Source: an uncultured Gammaproteobacteria bacterium
Lineage (GTDB): Bacteria; Pseudomonadota; Gammaproteobacteria; Nitrosococcales; Methylophagaceae
Direction: 5' to 3'
Assembly: GCA_905479985.1 (NCBI GenBank)
Contig: CAJQOM010000005.1
Coordinates: 1-64,000, forward strand
Length of the DNA: 64,000 nt
A program made the position numbers and the translations under genes. Position 1 is the first letter of the stretch. The number at the start of each line of letters is the position of its first letter. Positions 9,397-35,869 of this stretch are shown one piece after another. The notes beneath the pieces are model-generated. The model worked only from the letters and a program-made list of their open reading frames with translations. It was not told where the DNA came from and did not search any database.

Positions 9397-10643
9397 TCAG
9401 GTAAAACCTGTTCACCTAAGTAAAGAGACGCAATGCTTTCTCGTTCGCGAATACAATGCATTGCATCACCATCTATCATGATTTCTGCCGCTCTAGGACG
9501 TGAGTTGTAATTCGAACTCATGGTAAACCCATAGGCACCGGCAGATTTAATCGCCAGCAAATCACCTTGTTTAAGGGCCAATAAGCGATCTTTTCCTAAA
9601 AAATCACCCGTTTCGCAAACAGGACCGACAATATCGTAATGTTGCTTGGTTCCTGTCTCATCTAGCTCAACCGGAACAATTTCCTGCCAAGATTGGTATA
9701 ACGCTGGCCGTAATAAATCATTCATTGCCGCATCGACGATAGCAAAGTGACGATCTTCTGTTGGTTTCAAGTATTCAACGCGCGTCAGCAATACACCCGC
9801 ATTACCGACAATCGCTCTACCCGGCTCCATTAGAATCTCTAAATTCCTACCCGCTAATAAACCTGTTAATGCCTGCGCATACTCTGTTGGTGTTGGCGGT
9901 ACTTCATCTTTGTAGGTAATTCCCAAACCGCCACCGATATCAAAGTGATGCAAGTTAATGTTCAATGCAGCCAAACGATCAATTAAAGCTAGGACCCGTT
10001 TTAAGGCATCGACAAACGGCGTAACCGATGTCAACTGGGAGCCAATATGACAATCCACGCCGATGATTTGAATATTCGCCATGTCATTGGCTTGTCGATA
10101 AACCTGTTCGGCATCTTCAATTGCAATGCCAAACTTATTCTCTTTCAATCCGGTTGAAATATAGGGATGTGTTTGAGCATCAACATCGGGGTTGACGCGT
10201 ATTGATATCGGCGCCATCACACCTAATTCGGCCGCCACATCATTAATGCGTGCTAATTCTGGCACTGATTCCACATTGAAACAGCGGATTTTCTTTTGTA
10301 AGGCATCGCTAATTTCCGCTGTCGTTTTACCCACGCCAGAAAAAACTACTTTATCTGCGCGGCCACCCGCCGCTAAAACACGGGCTAATTCGCCACCAGA
10401 AACAATATCAAACCCAGATCCTAATCTCGCTAACACATTGAGCACAGCCACGTTTGAATTCGCTTTGACGGCGTAACAGACGCAATGCGGTAATGCTGAG
10501 AAAGCCGTATCGAATGCTTTCCAATGACGTTCTATTGTGGCCCTAGAATAGACATAGGTTGGCGAACCATATTGTTGTGCAACATCAGATAAGGCAACCT
10601 CTTCAGCAAATAATGTATCTGCTTGATAATGAAAATGATCCAT
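9393..10643 (-). CDS. lysA: Diaminopimelate decarboxylase
   Basis: This PLP-dependent fold III decarboxylase converts meso-diaminopimelate to lysine. It has 416 residues, with the PLP lysine K60 in CYAVKANSN, a glycine-rich phosphate loop in [12 protein letters not shown], and the substrate-proximal [10 protein letters not shown] near the C terminus. It lies seven bases downstream of lptM and overlaps dapF by four bases. AGGA upstream of the ATG is a plausible ribosome site. Confidence 0.97.
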
Positions 10644-10649
10644 CTTTTT

Positions 10650-10778
10650 CTATCCTGCGTTCACTTGGTTAACCGTGTTATCAGGGAGGTATAAATCGCC
10701 TTTTTGTCCACAGGCACTGGCCAAGCTCAATAGGAAAACCACGGCGGTTAGGCGTGCTATTTTATTTAATGTTTGCAT
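10650..10778 (-). CDS. lptM: Small LptM-like outer-membrane lipoprotein
   Basis: This 42-residue gene starts at the ATG at 10778. It encodes a basic N terminus (MQTLNKIARL), a hydrophobic stretch, and the lipobox LASAC with lipidated C23. Next come GQKGDLYLPD residues; the CGxKGxLYxP pattern is the hallmark of LptM (formerly YifL). In E. coli LptM assists oxidative maturation of the LPS translocon LptD. The position just upstream of lysA-dapF matches LptM's usual neighbourhood. The family match rests on motif and context. Confidence 0.88.
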   Translation of the reverse strand: MQTLNKIARLTAVVFLLSLASACGQKGDLYLPDNTVNQVNAG

Positions 10779-10870
10779 TGCATCTTATCCTCGTCCTCAA
10801 TTCGTTGTGCAGTATAGCGATTAATGATCTGATTCGCCATGCACACAACACTAGAAATTCTTCTTTAACT

Positions 10871-10899
10871 TTTATACTATAAGCCTTTGATTTTATAAA
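10871..10899 (+). promoter_or_regulatory. Possible sigma-70 promoter for pilB
   Basis: TTTATA (10871-10876) and TATAAA (10894-10899) are separated by 17 bases in the divergent space between lptM and pilB. The -10 match is good (5 of 6) and the -35 is modest (4 of 6). The surrounding sequence is AT-rich, so chance matches are likely. pilB begins about 30 bases downstream, after AAGGTGG. Confidence 0.25.
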
Positions 10900-10930
10900 T
10901 TTCGCTTCTTTTTAAGGTGGCTATCCAATA

Positions 10931-12643
10931 ATGGCAAATGCGACATCTGTTCGATTAAGCGGTTTGGCACAACGCCTGATCAATGACGGTTTACTTTCCG
11001 AACAAGAAGCTGAGAACGCACAACTCGCGGCTAAAGAAGCCGATTTAGCTTTTGTGAGTTATTTGGTTGAGAATAAAATTATCTCTAGTCAGCATATCGC
11101 GACGATTGCTTCTGAAGAGTTTGGTGTTCCGCTGTTCGATATTGAAACAATGAATATCGAACTGTCTGCGACAAAATTAATTTCAGAAAAACTAATTCGT
11201 CAACACAATGCCTTACCCCTTTATCAACGCGGAAAGCGCCTCTATGTCGCCGTTTCTGATCCCACCAACTTACAAGGTTTAGATGAGTTTCAGTTCAACA
11301 CGGGCTCTAATACTCGCCCTGTGCTCGTTGAAGAACAACAACTGGCCGCTGCGATTGAAAAATCCCTCGACAACAGTGACGACCAACTTGATGATTTTGG
11401 TGATGCCGAGTTAGATGATATCGATCTGGGTTCAGATGAAATCGAAACCAATAAAGACGATACTGATACCAATATTGATGACACCCCTGTTGTTCGCTTT
11501 ATTAACGGCATTTTAACGACCGCGATTAAAGCAGGCGCTTCCGATATTCATTTCGAACCTTATGAAAAGAAATACCGCGTTAGAACCCGTATCGATGGTA
11601 TTTTGCACGAAAACAAAACGGCACCGATCGCATTAGCAGGCCGTATTTCTGCCCGTATTAAGGTGTTATCTCGCCTTAATATTGCTGAACGCCGGGTGCC
11701 GCAAGATGGCCGTATGCGTCTAAAACTGTCCAAAACAAAAGCCATCGATTTTCGTGTTAATACTTGCCCGACCTTATTTGGTGAAAAAATTGTGCTGCGT
11801 ATTCTTGACCCCAGCAGCGCACAACTCGGTATTGATGCGCTCGGTTATGAACCAGAGCAAAAAGACGTCTTTATGGAGACCATGCACAATCCTTACGGCA
11901 TGATTTTGGTAACAGGTCCAACCGGTAGTGGTAAAACCGTTTCGCTTTATACTGCCCTCAATATTCTTAATACCGATGACCGTAATATTTCTACTGCGGA
12001 AGATCCGGCTGAAATCAGTTTACCGGGCATCAACCAGGTCAATGTTAACCCCACAGTTGGTCTTAATTTCTCAGATGCTTTACGCGCTTTCTTACGCCAA
12101 GATCCTGATGTCATCATGGTCGGTGAGATTCGTGACTTGGAAACCGCTGAAATTGCGATTAAAGCCGCTCAAACAGGGCATATGGTGTTATCAACGCTGC
12201 ATACCAATGATGCACCACAAACCCTAACCCGTCTTATGAATATGGGTGTCCCGCCTTTTAATATTGCCTCAGCGGTGACCTTGATTATTGCTCAGCGTTT
12301 AGCGCGGCGACTCTGTAGTCACTGTAAAGCACCAGAAGATATTCCTAAAGAAGCCTTGATAGAAGAGGGGTTTACACAAGCTCAGATTGAGGAAGGAGTC
12401 ACAGTTTTTAAAGCGGTCGGCTGCGATAATTGCACAGCAGGCTATAAAGGACGTGCTGGGATATATCAAGTGATGCCAGTCTCAGAAGCAATGGGACGTA
12501 TTATCATGGAAGGTGGTAATGCCATGCAGCTTGGTGACCAAGCTGCTGCTGAAGGCGTTGCAGACCTCCGACAATCTGGCCTGAAAAAAGTAGCTGCAGG
12601 CTTAACTAGCCTCGAAGAACTTAACCGTGTAATCACCGTATAA
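10931..12643 (+). CDS. pilB: Type IV pilus assembly ATPase PilB
   Basis: This hexameric secretion ATPase powers pilus extension at the inner membrane. The 570-residue protein has an N-terminal GSPII_E/MshEN-like domain (residues 1-150) and an acidic linker rich in D and E around residues 150-175. The ATPase core has Walker A GPTGSGKT near residues 330-337 and an Asp box in DPDVIMVGEIRD. The tetracysteine zinc motif CSHCKAPE...CDNCTAG, near residues 458-500, distinguishes PilB from PilT. The MshEN region is known to bind c-di-GMP in some family members. It is the first gene of a pilBCD run. Confidence 0.96.
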   Translation: MANATSVRLSGLAQRLINDGLLSEQEAENAQLAAKEADLAFVSYLVENKIISSQHIATIASEEFGVPLFDIETMNIELSATKLISEKLIRQHNALPLYQRGKRLYVAVSDPTNLQGLDEFQFNTGSNTRPVLVEEQQLAAAIEKSLDNSDDQLDDFGDAELDDIDLGSDEIETNKDDTDTNIDDTPVVRFINGILTTAIKAGASDIHFEPYEKKYRVRTRIDGILHENKTAPIALAGRISARIKVLSRLNIAERRVPQDGRMRLKLSKTKAIDFRVNTCPTLFGEKIVLRILDPSSAQLGIDALGYEPEQKDVFMETMHNPYGMILVTGPTGSGKTVSLYTALNILNTDDRNISTAEDPAEISLPGINQVNVNPTVGLNFSDALRAFLRQDPDVIMVGEIRDLETAEIAIKAAQTGHMVLSTLHTNDAPQTLTRLMNMGVPPFNIASAVTLIIAQRLARRLCSHCKAPEDIPKEALIEEGFTQAQIEEGVTVFKAVGCDNCTAGYKGRAGIYQVMPVSEAMGRIIMEGGNAMQLGDQAAAEGVADLRQSGLKKVAAGLTSLEELNRVITV

Positions 12644-12658
12644 TTTTAGGAGTAATAT

Positions 12659-13897
12659 GTGGCCGTAGCAACAAGTAAGGCACCCAAACCACAAGTTGAT
12701 CCGATCTTTCAATGGCAAGGCTCTAACCGTCAAGGCCGCCGTTTAAAAGGCGAGCAATCCGGTATTAGTGCCACGGCAGTGAAGGCTGACTTGCGTCGCC
12801 AAGGGATTACGCCCATCAAGGTTAAGAAAAAACCTAAGGATTTATTTGCCGCTAGAAAACCCGCCATTAAGCCCGCTGATATAGCTGTTTTTAGTCGTAT
12901 GATTGCGACGATGATGTCTTCTGGCGTGCCCTTGATGCAATCGATGCAGATTATTGGCGAAGGCCATGAAAATGCCAGTATGCAAGATATGATTTTATCG
13001 ATTAAAGCCGATGTCGAATCGGGTACTAGCCTGACAGATTCTTTAGCTAAATTCCCACACCACTTTGATGACCTATACGTCAGCCTCGTTAATGCGGGTG
13101 AACAATCGGGTACTTTAGAAAGCTTGCTCCATGAAATTGCCACTTATAAAGAGAAAACCGAGGCATTAAAAGCTAAAGTTAAAAAGGCGATGGTTTACCC
13201 CGCTTCTATTTTAGTCGTTGCCTTTGTTGTCACCGCCATTTTAATGATTTTCGTTATTCCGCAATTTGAAGCGCTCTTTACAGGTTTCGGTGCTGACTTA
13301 CCGGCTTTAACCAAGTTTGTCATTACTGTTTCAGAGGTGTTCCAGGAAAAGTGGTGGCTGATTTTTGGTGTCATCATTGCCAGTGTTATCGGCATTAAGG
13401 AAGCTAAAAAGCGCTCTAGAAAAGTACAACACTTCTTAGACCGACTACTGCTCAAAATACCCGTTATTGGTGTCGTCATCGAAAAAGGCGCGATTGCGCG
13501 TTTTGCTCGTACCTTTTCAACCATGTTTAAAGCAGGTGTACCCATGGTCGAAGCGATGGTCTCTGTCGCGGGTGCAACCGGTAATATCGTCTTTAGCGAA
13601 GCTACGCTTATCATGAAAGATGATGTTGCTACCGGAACGCAATTGAATGTTGCTATGAAGAGTAGTGAGCTCTTCCCTAATATGCCCGTCCAAATGGTCG
13701 CTATTGGCGAAGAGTCAGGTGCCTTAGACGCTATGCTGGCTAAGGTGGCGGACTTTTACGAGGCTGAGGTCGACGATGCTGTTGATAATATGACGGCCCT
13801 AATGGAACCGATGATTATGGTTATCTTGGGTGGCCTCATCGGCACGCTTGTTATCGCCATGTACCTCCCTATTTTCAAAATGGGTGCGGTCGTATAG
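12659..13897 (+). CDS. pilC: Type IV pilus inner-membrane platform protein PilC
   Basis: PilC is the inner-membrane platform coupling PilB or PilT to pilin assembly. The 412-residue protein has two T2SSF domains, one starting near FSRMIATMMSSGVPL and a repeat near FARTFSTMFKAGVPM. Its membrane segments lie near residues 180-200, 225-245 and 380-405. The start is GTG at 12659, 15 bases after the pilB stop and preceded by TAGGAG at 12647-12652. The ATG two bases earlier is out of frame. Confidence 0.95.
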   Translation: MAVATSKAPKPQVDPIFQWQGSNRQGRRLKGEQSGISATAVKADLRRQGITPIKVKKKPKDLFAARKPAIKPADIAVFSRMIATMMSSGVPLMQSMQIIGEGHENASMQDMILSIKADVESGTSLTDSLAKFPHHFDDLYVSLVNAGEQSGTLESLLHEIATYKEKTEALKAKVKKAMVYPASILVVAFVVTAILMIFVIPQFEALFTGFGADLPALTKFVITVSEVFQEKWWLIFGVIIASVIGIKEAKKRSRKVQHFLDRLLLKIPVIGVVIEKGAIARFARTFSTMFKAGVPMVEAMVSVAGATGNIVFSEATLIMKDDVATGTQLNVAMKSSELFPNMPVQMVAIGEESGALDAMLAKVADFYEAEVDDAVDNMTALMEPMIMVILGGLIGTLVIAMYLPIFKMGAVV

Positions 13898-13971
13898 ATA
13901 GTTAGTTTAATTTCGTTATATTCACTACCTTTAAGGCTACTATAATTTGAACTACATACAAACTAGCATGC

Positions 13972-16900
13972 ATGATTTTACCTGAAAGTAATGTATCTTT
14001 AAACCTTCATAAGACTCGAGAAAACGGACCTACTCTAGCTTATAACCAGGTCCTTGAAAGTCTTAAATCCCTTTCCACAGAGCATTTTTTTGTTGAAGCT
14101 GCAGAACAACTTTCCTTAGCCCTTAACACGCGCTATGTGATGATTACGCAGCGTTACACCTTTCCGGTCTCTAAACTCAAAACGCTGTCTTTCTGGGATA
14201 CCGACCAAATAAAAGACAACTTTGAGTTTATGCCAGACAATACGCCGTGTGGCGAAGTCATTGCTGGAGACGGTCAATTTCACTTCTTTGCCAATGATGT
14301 ACAAGCCCTTTTCCCTCAGGCTCCTGGATTGGAAGCACTAGAAGCTATCAGCTATGCCGCGGTTCCCATACTTGATTCTAAACGCGAAGTCTCTGGCCAC
14401 ATAGCTATTTTAGATGTTAAACCCTTACAAGACAAAGAACGGGTTCGCGCCATTCTTGAAGCTTATGCTAACTTTGCTAGTCTAGAATTAGAACGCAGGC
14501 AGACACAAGAGACGCTCGACATCTTAACAAAAGGGTTTAATTTACCGCTTGGTAAAAACTGTTTTAAACAATTAGTTCAAATGGCTGGCGATACGTTTGA
14601 TATCAACTTTGCTTTTATTGGTCAACACAGTAACGCTGATAGCCGCGTCATTGAAACCCTCGCGCTATACAACCGCGGCCAATTTTTAGGCCCAATGACT
14701 TATTCACTTGATAATGCACCTTGTGATGCCGTTGTTGGCAAACAAGCTGAGGCGTTTCCTTCAGATTTACAGGCTCTTTACCCAAATTTTCCATTGTTAC
14801 AAGAACTTGATGCAGAAGCTTATATCGGTGTGCCTTTGTTTGATGCCAATAATCAATCTATCGGGGTATTTTCCTTAGTCAACCAAAAGCCGATACCCCA
14901 AGCAGGGCGGATTAAAACACTCCTTCATGCCTTTGCAAATAAAGCCGCTTACGAAATAGAACGTGTGAAAAATGAACAAGCTTTGCACTATTATTCAGGC
15001 ATTGTGTCGACAACAGATGATTTCATGGCTTTTATCGATAAGGAGTACATATACAAGGCCATTAACCAGACTTATTGCGTACAATTTTCTCGTTCTAAAC
15101 AAGACATTATTGGCCATTCTGTCAAGCAGCTCCATGGGGCTGACCTTTTCCAGCTAATCAAACAGACCATCGACACTGCTATTAGTAGTGGTGCCACCGC
15201 CACTTGTGAATTTTGGCGATCTTATCCCGATGGCACAAAACATTTTATTCAATGTAGATATAATCCTTACTATGATGCCAATAGTGACATTACCGGTGTT
15301 TCCGTTGTTGCTCGGGATCTCAGCGAATTGAAGTCGGCACAGGACGCATTATTAGCGAGTGAGCAACGGCTTCAATCGCTTTACGATGATACCCCGTCTA
15401 TGTTTTTTACACTTGGCACTGATAGAACAATCAAATCGGTCAATGCTTTTGGTGCGGCGGAATTAGGTTATCAAATGGCTGAGTTAGTGGGCCAGTCTCT
15501 CAGTACCTTTGTCCATCACGAAGATCGTGTACACCTTGATATCGCTCTCAATAACTGTTTCTCCAACCCCGATACTATCCAGCATTGGGAGCTTCGAAAA
15601 AAACACCAAAACGGCACAACACTCTGGGTTAAAGAAACGGCTCGCTTAGTGCTTGATTCAAAACAGCAGCAACAATTGTTTATTGTTTCTGAAGATATTT
15701 CGGAACGTCATAAATTATCACAGCGCCTATCTTATCAAGCATCACACGATGCCTTAACGGGCTTAATTAACCGCCATGAATTTGAGCGTAGAACCCAGCA
15801 ATTATTAGATACGATCATTGAAGACAAAGCACAACATGTCATGTGCTACCTCGACCTCGACCAATTTAAAATTATTAATGACAGTTGCGGACATTTGGCC
15901 GGCGATACTTTATTAAAAAACATCTCTTCATTGTTGACCTTAAAAATAAGACGTGGAGATACCTTAGCTCGCTTGGGGGGGGATGAATTTGGTATTTTAA
16001 TGGCGCACTGCTCAATCACGCAGGCGCAGTCTATTGCCGAATCAATCCGCCAACTTATTGAAGATTTTAATTTCGTCTGGAATGACAAAACTTATTCCAT
16101 CGGAGCCAGCATCGGATTGGTGAGGATTGATGACAATACTGACTCTATCGTTTCTATTATGAGTACGGTTGATACAGCTTGCTATGCCGCTAAAGATGCT
16201 GGACGAAATCGTGTCGTTATCTACAGCGAAACAGACCAAGAAATGACTAAACGCCGTGTTGATATGGGCTGGGTGCAGCGCATACAAGATGCACTGGATA
16301 ATGATAAATTTCACTTATATTCACAAAAAATTGTTACTGTTAAACCCGGGCTACACAATAAGCCTAGCTATGAGTTGCTATTACGTTTATTTGAAGAAGA
16401 TGGCGACATTATTCTCCCAGGTGCTTTTTTACCGTCAGCAGAGCGTTATCATTTAGCCACTAAAATAGATCAATGGGTTGTCGAACATGCGTTTAACTGG
16501 TTGGCCAGCTTAGGCGCTAAAGTTAATGACTTTCAATACTGCACTATCAATCTTTCAGGCAACTCATTAGATGATGAGAGCTTTTTAGACTTTGCCCTGT
16601 CGCAAATAACCCGTCCTGATATATCAGGCCATAAGATTTGTTTTGAGATCACAGAAACGGCCGCTATTTCTAATTTATCTGGCGCTATAAAGTTTATACG
16701 GGAACTCTCTCAACACGGCTGTTTATTTGCACTCGATGATTTTGGTAGTGGTGTTTCTTCTTTTGGCTATTTAAAAAACTTAAATGTCGATTTTATCAAA
16801 ATAGATGGTAGTTTTGTTAAAGACTTAGTGACTGATCCTATTGATTATGCGATGGTAAAATCCATTAATGACATTGCGCATGTCATGGGGAAGAAAACCG

Positions 16901-17010
16901 TCGCGGAATACGTCGAAAATGATGATATCCTAGCTGCTTTGCAAGATATTGGCGTCGATTACGCGCAAGGTTATGGTATCGGTCGGCCTTGCCCTTTAAG
17001 CAATATCTAA
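13972..17010 (+). CDS. GAF-GAF-PAS-PAS-GGDEF-EAL cyclic-di-GMP signalling protein
   Basis: This 1012-residue, apparently cytoplasmic c-di-GMP turnover protein has two tandem GAF domains (about 25-175 and 190-335) and PAS domains at about 335-455 and 462-585. The GGDEF domain spans 590-750 and the EAL domain 770-1012. The GGDEF motif is intact near residues 668-672. EAL is replaced by ELL, keeping metal-binding E801; DDFGSG (from D922), IKIDGSF, AEYVEN and AQGYGIGRP are also kept, so phosphodiesterase activity remains plausible. The gene separates pilC from pilD, which are usually adjacent. TATAAT at 13941-13946 may give it its own promoter; the -35 is poor and no clear ribosome site precedes the ATG. 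Confidence 0.92.
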   Translation: MILPESNVSLNLHKTRENGPTLAYNQVLESLKSLSTEHFFVEAAEQLSLALNTRYVMITQRYTFPVSKLKTLSFWDTDQIKDNFEFMPDNTPCGEVIAGDGQFHFFANDVQALFPQAPGLEALEAISYAAVPILDSKREVSGHIAILDVKPLQDKERVRAILEAYANFASLELERRQTQETLDILTKGFNLPLGKNCFKQLVQMAGDTFDINFAFIGQHSNADSRVIETLALYNRGQFLGPMTYSLDNAPCDAVVGKQAEAFPSDLQALYPNFPLLQELDAEAYIGVPLFDANNQSIGVFSLVNQKPIPQAGRIKTLLHAFANKAAYEIERVKNEQALHYYSGIVSTTDDFMAFIDKEYIYKAINQTYCVQFSRSKQDIIGHSVKQLHGADLFQLIKQTIDTAISSGATATCEFWRSYPDGTKHFIQCRYNPYYDANSDITGVSVVARDLSELKSAQDALLASEQRLQSLYDDTPSMFFTLGTDRTIKSVNAFGAAELGYQMAELVGQSLSTFVHHEDRVHLDIALNNCFSNPDTIQHWELRKKHQNGTTLWVKETARLVLDSKQQQQLFIVSEDISERHKLSQRLSYQASHDALTGLINRHEFERRTQQLLDTIIEDKAQHVMCYLDLDQFKIINDSCGHLAGDTLLKNISSLLTLKIRRGDTLARLGGDEFGILMAHCSITQAQSIAESIRQLIEDFNFVWNDKTYSIGASIGLVRIDDNTDSIVSIMSTVDTACYAAKDAGRNRVVIYSETDQEMTKRRVDMGWVQRIQDALDNDKFHLYSQKIVTVKPGLHNKPSYELLLRLFEEDGDIILPGAFLPSAERYHLATKIDQWVVEHAFNWLASLGAKVNDFQYCTINLSGNSLDDESFLDFALSQITRPDISGHKICFEITETAAISNLSGAIKFIRELSQHGCLFALDDFGSGVSSFGYLKNLNVDFIKIDGSFVKDLVTDPIDYAMVKSINDIAHVMGKKTVAEYVENDDILAALQDIGVDYAQGYGIGRPCPLSNI

Positions 17011-17066
17011 AAAAGCCCATGTTTCAAGTAAAAGTCCTAATCCTTCATTATATTGACTGACTACCC

Positions 17067-17930
17067 ATGATCGAACTATTACAAAATTCTTCACTTTTTT
17101 TCATTTCGGCCACGACTATTCTTGGTTTGTTAGTCGGCAGCTTTTTAAACGTGGTCATTTATCGCCTCCCAGTGATGATGGAACGTGAATGGCAAATACA
17201 ATGCAATGAATTAAATGGTATTGAAAATAATAACAAAGCAGTTTTTACGCTTAGCCAACCACGTTCTGCCTGCCCACATTGTCAACATGCCATTACGGCA
17301 TTAGAAAATATTCCGGTTATTAGCTACCTTTTCCTTGGTGGAAAATGTCGTGGCTGTCATGCATCTATTTCAGTTCGCTACCCCATTATCGAAGCATTGA
17401 CGGGGATATTGTCCGCGGTGGTCGCCACACATTTTGGTTTTGGTTGGGCTTGTTTGGGGGCTTTATTATTAACATGGACTTTGATCGCCCTCACTTTTAT
17501 TGACGCTGATCATCAATTACTGCCTGATTCACTGACGCTACCCTTACTGTGGCTCGGCATCAGTTTTAATTTATATGGTCAATATACAACGCTTGAAGCA
17601 AGTGTCATCGGTGCACTGGCCGGCTATTTGTCACTTTGGTCTGTTTACCAAACTTTTAAATTAGTGACTGGAAAAGAAGGGATGGGCTTTGGTGATTTCA
17701 AGCTTTTAGCCGCCTTAGGCGCTTGGCTTGGCTGGTCAATGCTGCCTTCTATTATCCTCCTGTCATCGCTTGTCGGCGCTGTTGTTGGGCTTAGCTTGAT
17801 GCTTTTTCGACGCCATCAATCTGATATCCCAATTCCTTTCGGTCCTTATTTGGCTGCTGCGGGTTGGATAGCCCTTATTTGGGGAGAGTCCATTAACATG
17901 GCTTATCTCAATTGGGCTGGACTAGCCTAA
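17067..17930 (+). CDS. pilD: Prepilin leader peptidase / N-methyltransferase
   Basis: This membrane aspartyl protease cleaves type IV prepilin leaders after glycine and methylates the new N terminus. The 287-residue polytopic protein has an N-terminal methylase domain with the zinc tetracysteine pair CPHCQH and CRGCHAS. The peptidase aspartates are D146/D148 in FIDADHQLLPDSL and D210 in GFGDFKLLA. It sits four bases before coaE, as in the conserved pilD-coaE-zapD-yacG order. Confidence 0.97.
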   Translation: MIELLQNSSLFFISATTILGLLVGSFLNVVIYRLPVMMEREWQIQCNELNGIENNNKAVFTLSQPRSACPHCQHAITALENIPVISYLFLGGKCRGCHASISVRYPIIEALTGILSAVVATHFGFGWACLGALLLTWTLIALTFIDADHQLLPDSLTLPLLWLGISFNLYGQYTTLEASVIGALAGYLSLWSVYQTFKLVTGKEGMGFGDFKLLAALGAWLGWSMLPSIILLSSLVGAVVGLSLMLFRRHQSDIPIPFGPYLAAAGWIALIWGESINMAYLNWAGLA

Positions 17931-17933
17931 ATC

Positions 17934-18548
17934 ATGTTTAGAGTCGGACTCACCGGAGGTATTGCTAGTGGTAAAACTACTGTGTGCCGATACTTTACTG
18001 AACTTGGTATTGATGTCTTTGATGCTGATGATATCGCGCGCGAATTGGTTCAAATCGATACACTTTGCTACCAACAAATTGTTGGGCAGTTTGGTTCTTC
18101 CTTTCTGTTGAGCGATCGTAGTCTTGATCGACCACAACTTCGCGCACTTATTTTTTCGGATGCGCAGGCTAAACAAAGCTTAGAGGCCATTTTACACCCG
18201 GTTATTCACGCTGAGTTAGTTGCTAAAAGTGCGCTGAGCCAATCAGCTTATTGTATTTTGGCCATCCCACTTTTAGCCGAAAGTAAAATAGTTTATCCGT
18301 TAAATCACGTTCTGGTAATTAAGACATCGCCAGAGCTACAATTACAGCGGCTTTGCAAACGAGATGGATTCTCCACCGAAACTGCTCAGGCTATGATTAA
18401 TCAGCAATCCTCCTCGGCTGATAAAGCGGCTATTGCAAATGATATTATCCATAATAATCTTGGTCTCGATACCCTTAAAGATCAGGCGTGCCGCCTTCAC
18501 CAACATTATCTACAGTTGGCTAAGCAGGCCGCGGTAGTTGCTAGTTAG
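17934..18548 (+). CDS. coaE: Dephospho-CoA kinase
   Basis: This enzyme carries out the last step of coenzyme A synthesis, phosphorylating the 3' hydroxyl of dephospho-CoA. The 204-residue P-loop kinase has Walker A GGIASGKTT at residues 8-16 and DADDIARELV shortly after. The length is normal. It lies between pilD and zapD in the usual gammaproteobacterial cluster. Confidence 0.95.
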   Translation: MFRVGLTGGIASGKTTVCRYFTELGIDVFDADDIARELVQIDTLCYQQIVGQFGSSFLLSDRSLDRPQLRALIFSDAQAKQSLEAILHPVIHAELVAKSALSQSAYCILAIPLLAESKIVYPLNHVLVIKTSPELQLQRLCKRDGFSTETAQAMINQQSSSADKAAIANDIIHNNLGLDTLKDQACRLHQHYLQLAKQAAVVAS

Positions 18549-18557
18549 TGTATTGTC

Positions 18558-19370
18558 ATGGAGAATAGTCATTTTGCTGATGAAGTCCTCGCTAATACTG
18601 TGACTGATAACATTATCTACGAACAACCGCTCAATGAGCGCATACGCACCTTTCTGAGGTTAGAATTTCTATTCTCGCGCGTTGATATTGCCTTACTGGG
18701 CTGTTCGGAACAACAAAACCGCGATGCAATTGATAGTTTATTGCAGATTTTGTCCGTCTTTGAGCGCAGTGATTTAAAGTCTGAGATCATCAAAGAACTC
18801 GAGCGGCTTATTGCCACACTAACGGCGTTAGAAAATACACCCGGTGTTGATACCAAAGCCTTGGATGATTTATTGTCCGAATTAGATCACGTTTTAGATA
18901 GCTTACATATCAAAAAAACCGCCATCGGCCAGCAATTGCGCGATAGTGATTTTTTATACAGTATCCGACAGCGCTCTAGCATTCCTGGTGGCACCTGTGA
19001 CTTTGACTTGCCCAGCTATCATTTTTGGTTACAGCATACGACTGACACTGACCGACAAGCCCAACTCAAAACGTGGTTAGAACAATTCTCGGGAGTACGT
19101 GCAGCCATTAATACTACATTACACTTGGTTCGCGAGAGCACGCACTTTGTCCCGACTACTGCTGTGTCTGGTTTCTACCAACATAGTCTCGATGGTAATC
19201 ATCCCAATCAGTTAATTCGTGTTCAGATTCCGAGTAATGTACCTTATTACCCTGAGATTAGTGGTGGCAAACACCGCTTTACCGTCCGGTTTATGCAATT
19301 TGATTTGGCACAGCGTTCTCAACAATCCACAGATGATATTGTCTTTTCGCTCAGCTGTTGTGCCATGTAA
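18558..19370 (+). CDS. zapD: Cell division protein ZapD
   Basis: ZapD bundles FtsZ filaments and stabilises the Z ring in the cytoplasm. The 270-residue sequence contains YEQPLNERIRTFLRLEFLF near residue 22 and GGTCDFDLPSYHFWL near residue 144, both characteristic of the ZapD (DUF1342) family. It is mainly helical with no membrane segment. It follows coaE by nine bases and precedes yacG by six. Confidence 0.94.
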   Translation: MENSHFADEVLANTVTDNIIYEQPLNERIRTFLRLEFLFSRVDIALLGCSEQQNRDAIDSLLQILSVFERSDLKSEIIKELERLIATLTALENTPGVDTKALDDLLSELDHVLDSLHIKKTAIGQQLRDSDFLYSIRQRSSIPGGTCDFDLPSYHFWLQHTTDTDRQAQLKTWLEQFSGVRAAINTTLHLVRESTHFVPTTAVSGFYQHSLDGNHPNQLIRVQIPSNVPYYPEISGGKHRFTVRFMQFDLAQRSQQSTDDIVFSLSCCAM

Positions 19371-19376
19371 ACCGAT

Positions 19377-19571
19377 ATGATCACCACCGTTCAATGCCCA
19401 CAATGCCAAAAACCCGTGACTTGGGATGACACCTCAGCGTGGAAACCCTTTTGCAGTGAACGTTGTAAGCTGATTGATTTGGGTGATTGGGCAGAAGGAA
19501 ATCATCGGGTCGCAGGCCCAAAGACAGAGGATGCTTTTCCTGACGATTTAGATCATTTTGATTACCACTAA
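19377..19571 (+). CDS. yacG: DNA gyrase inhibitor YacG, zinc-binding
   Basis: YacG is a small zinc protein that binds GyrB and inhibits gyrase in E. coli. The 64 residues hold the four zinc cysteines C7, C10, C26 and C30 ([10 protein letters not shown] and [15 protein letters not shown]) and an acidic C terminus. It is the last gene of the pil-coaE-zapD run and converges on nadA, leaving only six bases between stop codons. Confidence 0.95.
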
Positions 19572-33772: not shown

Positions 33773-35869
33773 CTAAAAATCGTCATCTTCGAAATTATAG
33801 TTCAGCTCGCCTGACGGTTCATGAATGTAATACCCCTGAGCATAATCGACACCTAACCGCCATAATAAGGCGAGACTATTGGCATCGGAGACAAACTCCG
33901 CAATGCTACGCTTACCAGCATTTTTACTCATCTCGATAATGGCTTTCACTGCAGCTTGATTCTCTGCATCATTGGCCATATTCTCAACAAAAGCACCATT
34001 AATTTTCAAATAATCAACATCGAGTAAATCTAAGCTAGATGAGAAGTTGAGACCTGAACCAAAATGCTCTAAACCAAACTCACAACCCGCTTCTTTTAAT
34101 TTAGTTAACGTTGCCTTCGTTTCATCAACATTGGCCATGGCATCGGTTTCGCTCACTTCAAAAGTCAGTGATTCGCCAGGTATGCCATGTTCTTTCAATA
34201 AACCAAATAGCCAGTCAATAAAGGTTGGATCGCAGATAGTTTGTTTGGATAATTTCAAAAAGAAACGTGTTCTGGGAAAGCGTTGTTTATGTTCAGCCAA
34301 GCTTTTTAACGCATTGGGAATAACCCATTGATCAATCACACCCATCATGTCGAATTCAGCAGCAAAATCGATAAAGTCTTCGGCCACAATTAAATCGCCC
34401 GTTTCTTCATCAATCATTCTCAGCAATACTTCATAAAGCTCTTGTTCTTTACCGTGCAAGCTGACAATGGGCTGGTAGTGTAATGTGAAGTTTTGTTTTT
34501 CTATCGCGACTTCTAAACGTGGCTTCCAACTGGCGGCTTCATCAAACTCTGCTTCTTCTAATTCGATTGTTGGCGCTTGATAACGCATCACCCTTTCATC
34601 TGAATTGTGTTGTGCTAATGCGCAGGCTTTATCGGCATGATTGAGTATATTCTCTACTTTGGAGCTCGTTTCGGATATCCGACTAATACCAATACTACAT
34701 TTTATATCTAACGGTTTATCACTGATCTGAGAGCGATAGCCATCAATGATGTCGCCATACGCTTTGGCGCGTTCATCGACATAATTATCATCATCACTAT
34801 TCACTATGACAGTGAAAACCTGATCGGCATAATGGGCTAATAAATCACCGTCAACAATGCCTTTTCTGAGCACTTCACCTATTTCTTTCAGTACTTGCTC
34901 ACTGGCGGCAACACCCAACTGTTCTTTAATCAGCTGGAAATCATCTAACACGATATAGAGCAAAGCCGCATCAGCCTGGCTATCTCCAGCACGGCCTGCT
35001 ACTTTTTCTAATTCATCCATAAAACGAACGCGATTGTAGAGCCCCGTCAAGAAATCATGATCTCTTAATAGTTGAAGTTGGTCGGAATTTACATCTTCGT
35101 GTTCACTTTCATTACGCACAACAACTTGTGTACAGTTTTCCCCTTCGACTTCAGCATGGCTGAATTCAATATCAGCCTTAAAGAGACCGCCATCGTCTCG
35201 GACACCTTGGACAGAAACATGCACCGATTGTGATTCGACTTGCTCTGAAAACTGTCTAAAGACAGTTTTGAATGTGTTTTGGTCATCTGCTGCGATTAAA
35301 TCTAAGATGGGTAAACCGTCGACGTCTTCTGCTTCTTCGTAGCCAAATAATTCCAAGTAAGCACTATTAACATAGATATGCATACCCTCGTGCATATACG
35401 CTACGGCATCTTTCGAACTTTCTAATAACAAGCGGGACCGCTTTTCGCTTTCTCTTAGCGCCCGCTCATTTCTTCTTGCAGCGCGGCGGTTGAATAAACT
35501 TTGTAGCTCTCGCTGCACGGCAAACTGTAACCGTTTGCTATCACCGATTGGGATAACGTCTTGCATGCCCAAATTGTAGAGCTCTTCGATCTCATCCTGA
35601 CCCGATGTTAATACAATACACGGTAAGTCCCGTCCTAAACGATGAACAATATTCACCAATTCACGGGGCGGTACGCTCGTTAAAGCAGCACGACAAATTA
35701 ACAAGTCCCATGTTTGCTGGGCTAAAGCTTGCTCGATACCATTTAATGTATCTTCTCTCGAAGCACGAACGGCATGGCCTGCACTCCGCAGCGTATTCGT
35801 TACGTTATCCGCTTCTGTTAAAGAATCATCAACCAATAACAGTCTTAACATACCATCAGATCTTGTCAC
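33773..35869 (-). CDS. fimX: FimX-like degenerate GGDEF-EAL c-di-GMP effector
   Basis: The architecture is that of FimX of Pseudomonas aeruginosa, an effector that promotes type IV pilus assembly and twitching. The 698-residue protein has a receiver-like domain (1-130), a PAS domain (about 140-260), a degenerate GGDEF and a degenerate EAL. QVFTVIV stands where GGDEF should be, and E480-VL (YEVLLRM) replaces EAL. DDFGSG has become EHFGSG, so neither catalytic activity is expected and c-di-GMP binding is the likely function. GTG at 35869 overlaps the plsC stop as GTGA and has AAGGAA eight bases upstream; ATG at 35851 is the alternative start. Confidence 0.85.
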   Translation of the reverse strand: MTRSDGMLRLLLVDDSLTEADNVTNTLRSAGHAVRASREDTLNGIEQALAQQTWDLLICRAALTSVPPRELVNIVHRLGRDLPCIVLTSGQDEIEELYNLGMQDVIPIGDSKRLQFAVQRELQSLFNRRAARRNERALRESEKRSRLLLESSKDAVAYMHEGMHIYVNSAYLELFGYEEAEDVDGLPILDLIAADDQNTFKTVFRQFSEQVESQSVHVSVQGVRDDGGLFKADIEFSHAEVEGENCTQVVVRNESEHEDVNSDQLQLLRDHDFLTGLYNRVRFMDELEKVAGRAGDSQADAALLYIVLDDFQLIKEQLGVAASEQVLKEIGEVLRKGIVDGDLLAHYADQVFTVIVNSDDDNYVDERAKAYGDIIDGYRSQISDKPLDIKCSIGISRISETSSKVENILNHADKACALAQHNSDERVMRYQAPTIELEEAEFDEAASWKPRLEVAIEKQNFTLHYQPIVSLHGKEQELYEVLLRMIDEETGDLIVAEDFIDFAAEFDMMGVIDQWVIPNALKSLAEHKQRFPRTRFFLKLSKQTICDPTFIDWLFGLLKEHGIPGESLTFEVSETDAMANVDETKATLTKLKEAGCEFGLEHFGSGLNFSSSLDLLDVDYLKINGAFVENMANDAENQAAVKAIIEMSKNAGKRSIAEFVSDANSLALLWRLGVDYAQGYYIHEPSGELNYNFEDDDF

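Follow-up and report, generated by a model that had tools for sequence, protein, structure and literature searches.

Between pilC and pilD of a type IVa pilus cluster in an uncultured member of the Methylophagaceae lies a 3 kb gene that encodes a protein of GAF-GAF-PAS-PAS-GGDEF-EAL architecture, with intact motifs in both its cyclase and phosphodiesterase halves. Judged from its sequence, the product is most likely a functional, sensor-controlled c-di-GMP enzyme of the RbdA type that was placed in the pil operon in one sublineage of the family. The explanation that we favour, and to which we give about an even chance, is that this enzyme was kept between the two genes and adjusts c-di-GMP for the pilus by way of FimX and PilZ.

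The cluster is read from the + strand of the window, the whole 64,000-nucleotide stretch of DNA that was analysed. It opens with pilB (10931-12643, +), which encodes the 570-residue extension ATPase of a type IVa pilus (TIGR02538, 850.9 bits with a cut-off of 675.65; Pfam T2SSE and MshEN), and continues with pilC (12659-13897, +) for the 412-residue platform protein (Pfam T2SSF, 3.7e-65, with close matches in relatives). The inserted gene (13972-17010, +; 1012 residues) follows after a spacer of 74 bp, where the first-pass annotation had placed it, and is documented by its open frame, Pfam, the self-similarity of its GAF domains, alignment to RbdA and motif words. A second spacer, of 56 bp, leads to pilD (17067-17930, +; 287 residues, prepilin peptidase, Pfam A24_N_bact and Peptidase_A24), and next in the cluster are coaE (17934-18548, +; dephospho-CoA kinase, Pfam CoaE 1.3e-52) and the cell division gene zapD (18558-19370, +; Pfam ZapD 2.1e-74). 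No terminator-like site was called in either spacer of the inserted gene. A promoter-like site at 13895-13922, in the pilC-side spacer, was counted against a shared operon; the scan of the region called 17 such sites against 18.7 expected, no more than chance, so little can be said from it. Inspection by eye revealed no clear ribosome-binding site before the ATG of the inserted gene, which is presumably co-transcribed with the pil genes.

The domain order that had been proposed for the product was borne out. GAF domain 1 (14086-14490, +; residues 39-173, Pfam GAF 1.4e-9) is followed by a GAF-like domain 2 (14530-14979, +), which is absent from the Pfam report and was recognised from its resemblance to GAF domain 1 (28% identity over 130 residues, E 1e-21). 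Two PAS domains come next, at 15013-15333 (+; Pfam PAS_4, best stretch 348-454) and 15367-15681 (+; Pfam PAS, best stretch 466-570), and then the GGDEF domain (15739-16212, +; residues 590-747, Pfam 6.8e-40, 136.9 bits with a cut-off of 23.8) and the EAL domain (16276-16989, +; residues 769-1006, Pfam 2e-59, 201.3 bits with a cut-off of 31.3). The GGDEF half is intact as first read, with GGDEF at residue 669 and the RxxD site (RRGD) at 660. The EAL signature is indeed spelled ELL, within ELLLR at 801, and the other expected residues are kept in agreement with the RbdA alignment: NLSG at 860 and 901, EITE at 892, DDFG at 922, KIDG at 943, AEYVEN at 978 and QGYG at 999. These words we take to include the ligand and catalytic residues, and on that assumption the protein is a GGDEF-EAL dual-domain (RbdA-type) member by its domains and by the motifs of both halves, predicted to be enzymatically active. 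No obvious membrane segment was found by eye, and a cytosolic location is probable.

The closest solved homologue is RbdA (PA0861) of Pseudomonas aeruginosa (phmmer E 2.9e-138, residues 2-427 of the GGDEF-EAL half used as query), with which the inserted protein has in common the PAS-GGDEF-EAL core, an intact GGDEF and the ELLLR word; the ELL spelling is therefore not odd, because a working relative has it too. RbdA is described as membrane-bound, with a domain in the periplasm, and as an enzyme that hydrolyses c-di-GMP, its phosphodiesterase activity being dominant (PMC11372557). The inserted protein differs from it in its GAF-GAF-PAS-PAS arrangement, in the absence of an obvious membrane segment by eye and in its location in a pil operon. 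It was not accepted as an RbdA orthologue, given that its N-terminus is formed by the GAF pair and that a membrane-anchored periplasmic sensor was not seen by eye. If the analogy with RbdA holds, the protein would probably be a net phosphodiesterase. The best NCBIfam match of the inserted protein is PRK09776 (473 bits, below the cut-off of 1135), presumably E. coli DgcE, and because this family is named diguanylate cyclase the net direction of turnover is one that we infer. FimX, also a GGDEF-EAL protein, is associated with type IV pili, and its chain 4j40 matches the inserted protein at E 3.5e-43. FimX is described as degenerate and as binding c-di-GMP without turnover (PMC8389850). The inserted protein, by contrast, keeps its catalytic motifs and has no Pfam match to REC, a domain that FimX bears, and the window encodes a FimX homologue of its own at 33773-35869; the identification of the inserted gene as a degenerate FimX was thus rejected.

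That pilC and pilD are usually adjacent, as the first-pass annotation had supposed, agrees with a spacing survey of 75 genomes, own genome included. Among the 62 measurable relatives the pilC-pilD gap is at most 203 bp in 61, with a median of 11.5 bp over all 62, against 3169 bp in the own genome. The 13 genomes outside this count are the own genome, two sister genomes treated separately below (G003 and G012) and ten without a usable pair (G018, G022, G025, G029, G054, G055, G067, G069, G071 and G074), including four (G025, G054, G055 and G071) where a PilC paralogue at 32-34% only was excluded by hand. The sole exception, G027, has a gap of 18.4 kb, and the inserted gene had no match at E <= 1e-5 in the stretch fetched, which spans all but about 400 bp of it. 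This unrelated insert of about 18 kb (L046) holds frames that by eye resemble RND-type efflux, patatin-like and phospholipase D-like genes. At the level of the class, the gap was at most 300 bp in 79 of 80 genomes, hand-picked down the ranking from at least 299 genomes with a PilD match, skipping genomes already measured, places at contig edges and, by no fixed rule, some others. The remaining one, G197, has a gap of 1191 bp that gave no match to the inserted gene; a 188-residue frame, Uma2-like by eye, lies within it (L137:1492-2058, - strand). Of 80 loci in named genomes, 77 had a recognised pilC upstream, in every case with a gap of at most 300 bp; one of the other three is on too short a contig. 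The three samples overlap and their counts are not additive.

Genes of the same general type occur near pilus genes in other settings. In G123, a FimX-like gene is located directly upstream of pilB (L152:4024-5988, - strand); like the inserted gene it is of GGDEF-EAL type and adjoins pilBCD, but its motifs are degenerate by eye and it stands before pilB rather than between pilC and pilD. A GGDEF-EAL-type gene can therefore join this cluster elsewhere too. A Gallionellaceae MAG (L169:13-1620) carries a GGDEF-EAL match that precedes pilD by about 5 kb and falls beyond the pilC-pilD gap, at a locus where no pilB match was found. In the open-licence PMC literature, no title or abstract start dealt with a GGDEF gene inside pilBCD.

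The insertion is common to three genomes rather than peculiar to one, as the alignments of the two sister genomes, the closest relatives sampled, indicate. In G003 this site holds the first 135 residues of PilC, then a remnant of residues 840-1012 of the inserted protein (90% identity), then pilD; G012 holds a 104-residue frame in which roughly the first 47 PilB residues run directly into residues 953-1012 of the inserted protein (78% identity), again followed by pilD. The nucleotide alignment of G003 covers 10501-13062 and then 16457-19498, which places a deletion at about 13063-16456, and that of G012 covers 10501-11064 and then 16831-19498, with a deletion at about 11065-16830. Two different deletions are thus seen, one removing pilC sequence and the other pilB and pilC sequence, each together with the rest of the inserted gene; both junctions are internal to contigs and were read from assemblies, that of G003 being in about 260 pieces. 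A tree of 12 genomes built from PilD and ZapD, which left out G027 because its stretch is without zapD, separates the own genome (G000), G003 and G012 from the other nine with a bootstrap of 96. The case in which the insertion is absent from all relatives, named beforehand as one that would count against a role in the pilus, does not hold, although the relatives searched yielded no intact copy outside the own genome and one intact copy is known.

Selection on the retained part was estimated from G000 and G003. The dN/dS ratio of the EAL tail (167 codons) is 0.039, compared with 0.030 for pilB (residues 79-570), 0.034 for pilC (residues 1-135), 0.046 for pilD, 0.051 for zapD and 0.166 for coaE, ratios that are rough because dS exceeds 1 for all but coaE. 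A value of about 0.04, even so rough, points to purifying selection on the tail like that on pilB and pilC. Together with the same-site remnants, it suggests that for much of the period after the species diverged the gene was probably present here and under selection, and a recent or decaying insert was rejected on the same evidence.

In both sister lineages the pilus was apparently lost. PilQ was above cut-off in five of nine genomes tested, own genome included, and had no match in the other four (G003, G012, G018 and G022). In G003 a pilT-like match has two stops, a pilB match has one and FimX is in two pieces; in G012 no pilC match and no FimX at E <= 1e-70 were found. G012 does keep pilD (L042:4291-5154, - strand; 83% identical, dN/dS about 0.07), pilB being reduced to a short remnant. 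Each deletion is contiguous, and the joint loss of enzyme and pil sequence is therefore no independent evidence of a functional tie.

As to the origin of the gene, a search for close relatives in genome contigs found none of full length. The N-terminal half at E <= 1e-40 matched in two of 369 genomes of the class, itself and G170 (28%), among the best four candidates at most per genome, and at E <= 1e-30 in four of 75 genomes, itself and three at 25-28%. Among plasmids, 40 records matched at E <= 1e-60, and no single place in any of them covered 80%. With the whole protein at E <= 1e-170, and up to ten best candidates per genome, two of 75 genomes matched, the own genome and G062. The G062 matches cover the PAS-GGDEF-EAL part at 54% and 50%, above the best paralogue in the own genome (47%), which hints at an outside origin and is no proof of it; the G+C content of the gene, 41.5% against 44.3% for the window, is a weak hint in the same direction.

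How such an enzyme might reach the pilus was addressed through PilB and its regulators. It had been suggested that c-di-GMP turned over locally binds the N-terminal domain of PilB (residues 1-150) and so tunes extension directly. This PilB does have an MshEN-type N-terminal domain (Pfam MshEN, 3.9e-21), as have the c-di-GMP-binding assembly ATPases of the MshE type, and binding has been described for some PilBs, for example those of Myxococcus xanthus and Clostridium perfringens (PMC11656802). The motif responsible is described as two 24-residue repeats of the form RLG...LxxxLxxQ (PMC5013675), and the PilB found here is without these binding residues, unlike the MshE-type ATPases. When the repeats are registered on Gly20, consistent with the alignment to 6olj PilB, two of seven key residues are present in repeat I and none of seven in repeat II, giving 2/14, and a free scan reached at best 5/14, in a different register. 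NF053729, the NCBIfam model of the MshE-type c-di-GMP motif, had no match in PilB at E <= 0.001. The closest solved chains to the PilB N-terminus are 7lko and 7lkm, from entries that also hold PilZ and are taken as the Xanthomonas citri PilB-PilZ complex; Xanthomonas-type PilBs, that of X. citri included, are described as being without the MshEN motif (PMC8389850). PilB was consequently not classed with the c-di-GMP-binding PilB/MshE proteins, and we regard the direct route as very improbable.

The same genome encodes a second assembly ATPase with a canonical c-di-GMP motif (L070:2163-3899 on G000:C13, - strand), which has 10 of the 14 motif residues, matches NF053729 at 67.3 bits (cut-off 38) and adjoins a PilC-like gene. 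The inserted enzyme might link pilus expression to another c-di-GMP output of this kind, an idea to which the motif and the neighbouring PilC-like gene lend some appeal; no genetic link between the two loci was seen, however, and we consider it improbable.

The indirect route has its components in place. A fimX homologue (33773-35869, - strand) lies in the window about 16 kb from pilD, has the domain order REC-PAS-GGDEF-EAL by Pfam and catalytic motifs that are degenerate by eye, and matches FimX 4j40 at E 5.6e-63 and RbdA 5xgb at E 6.9e-67; it is likely to be the c-di-GMP reader for this pilus. A PilZ at G000:C6 has as its closest solved counterpart a type IV fimbriae assembly PilZ (E 2.4e-40), to which it is identical over the final eight residues; among these is the terminal Met, which in X. 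citri is described as contacting PilB (PMC8389850). PilB, PilZ with its conserved C-terminal Met and FimX are thus all encoded, as in a type IVa pilus regulated by PilB, PilZ and FimX. With PilB lacking the motif and FimX and PilZ present, any effect on this pilus would more plausibly run from FimX through PilZ to PilB. A FimX match at E <= 1e-70 was obtained in 53 of 75 genomes, a count that includes some weaker hits on other GGDEF-EAL genes. Co-occurrence of FimX with this pilus is not universal among the genomes searched, since G016 (67% complete) has pilB, pilC and PilQ with no FimX match and G025 (82% complete) has FimX and PilQ with no close pilB or pilC match.

The main competitor, which we rate as a serious possibility falling a little short of even, is that the enzyme works but has no particular connection with the pilus: its gene would have landed at a tolerated site between pilC and pilD, and the product would feed the general c-di-GMP pool. 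The own genome has 33 GGDEF/EAL-type places including the inserted gene (a few are weak, and some are fragments of a single gene), which leaves about 30 others and makes a general role nearly as likely as a pilus-dedicated one. Unrelated DNA occupies the same gap elsewhere (18.4 kb in G027, 1.2 kb in G197), and a strong match to the N-terminal half is confined to the own genome among the 75, even though pilB, pilC and pilD are all present in many of the others. A mere landing site is harder to reconcile with a gene that stayed in the operon long enough to be carried by three species and whose tail was under strong selection; at E <= 1e-30 the N-terminal half is found nowhere else in G003 or G012. 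A pilus-dedicated role is plausible, if unproven. Its strictest form, an enzyme made with and held near PilB and PilC that sets the c-di-GMP which FimX and PilZ report to PilB, and that is dispensable only once the pilus is lost, seems doubtful to us. From the interpretation first put forward for this locus, the anatomy, the intact motifs and the unusual placement stand, and direct binding by PilB, for which the motif is absent, does not.

In the favoured explanation, the gene would have become lodged between pilC and pilD in the common ancestor of a single Methylophagaceae sublineage and would then have been kept under selection. Its two GAF and two PAS domains may control the intact cyclase and phosphodiesterase domains, with a net output that is probably hydrolysis by analogy with RbdA and possibly switchable. 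Made together with the pilus machine, the enzyme would adjust c-di-GMP during pilus building; FimX would read the nucleotide and, with PilZ, act on a PilB that does not itself bind it. Which of the many c-di-GMP enzymes of a cell feeds which target is an open question in the field. If the tie is accidental, the gene would be unremarkable among GGDEF-EAL genes and unusual only in its location. Where a target machine has a c-di-GMP reader of its own, an intact turnover enzyme encoded within the same machine's operon would offer a natural test of local signalling, for which the empty-site relatives and the two remnant-bearing sister genomes provide built-in comparisons.
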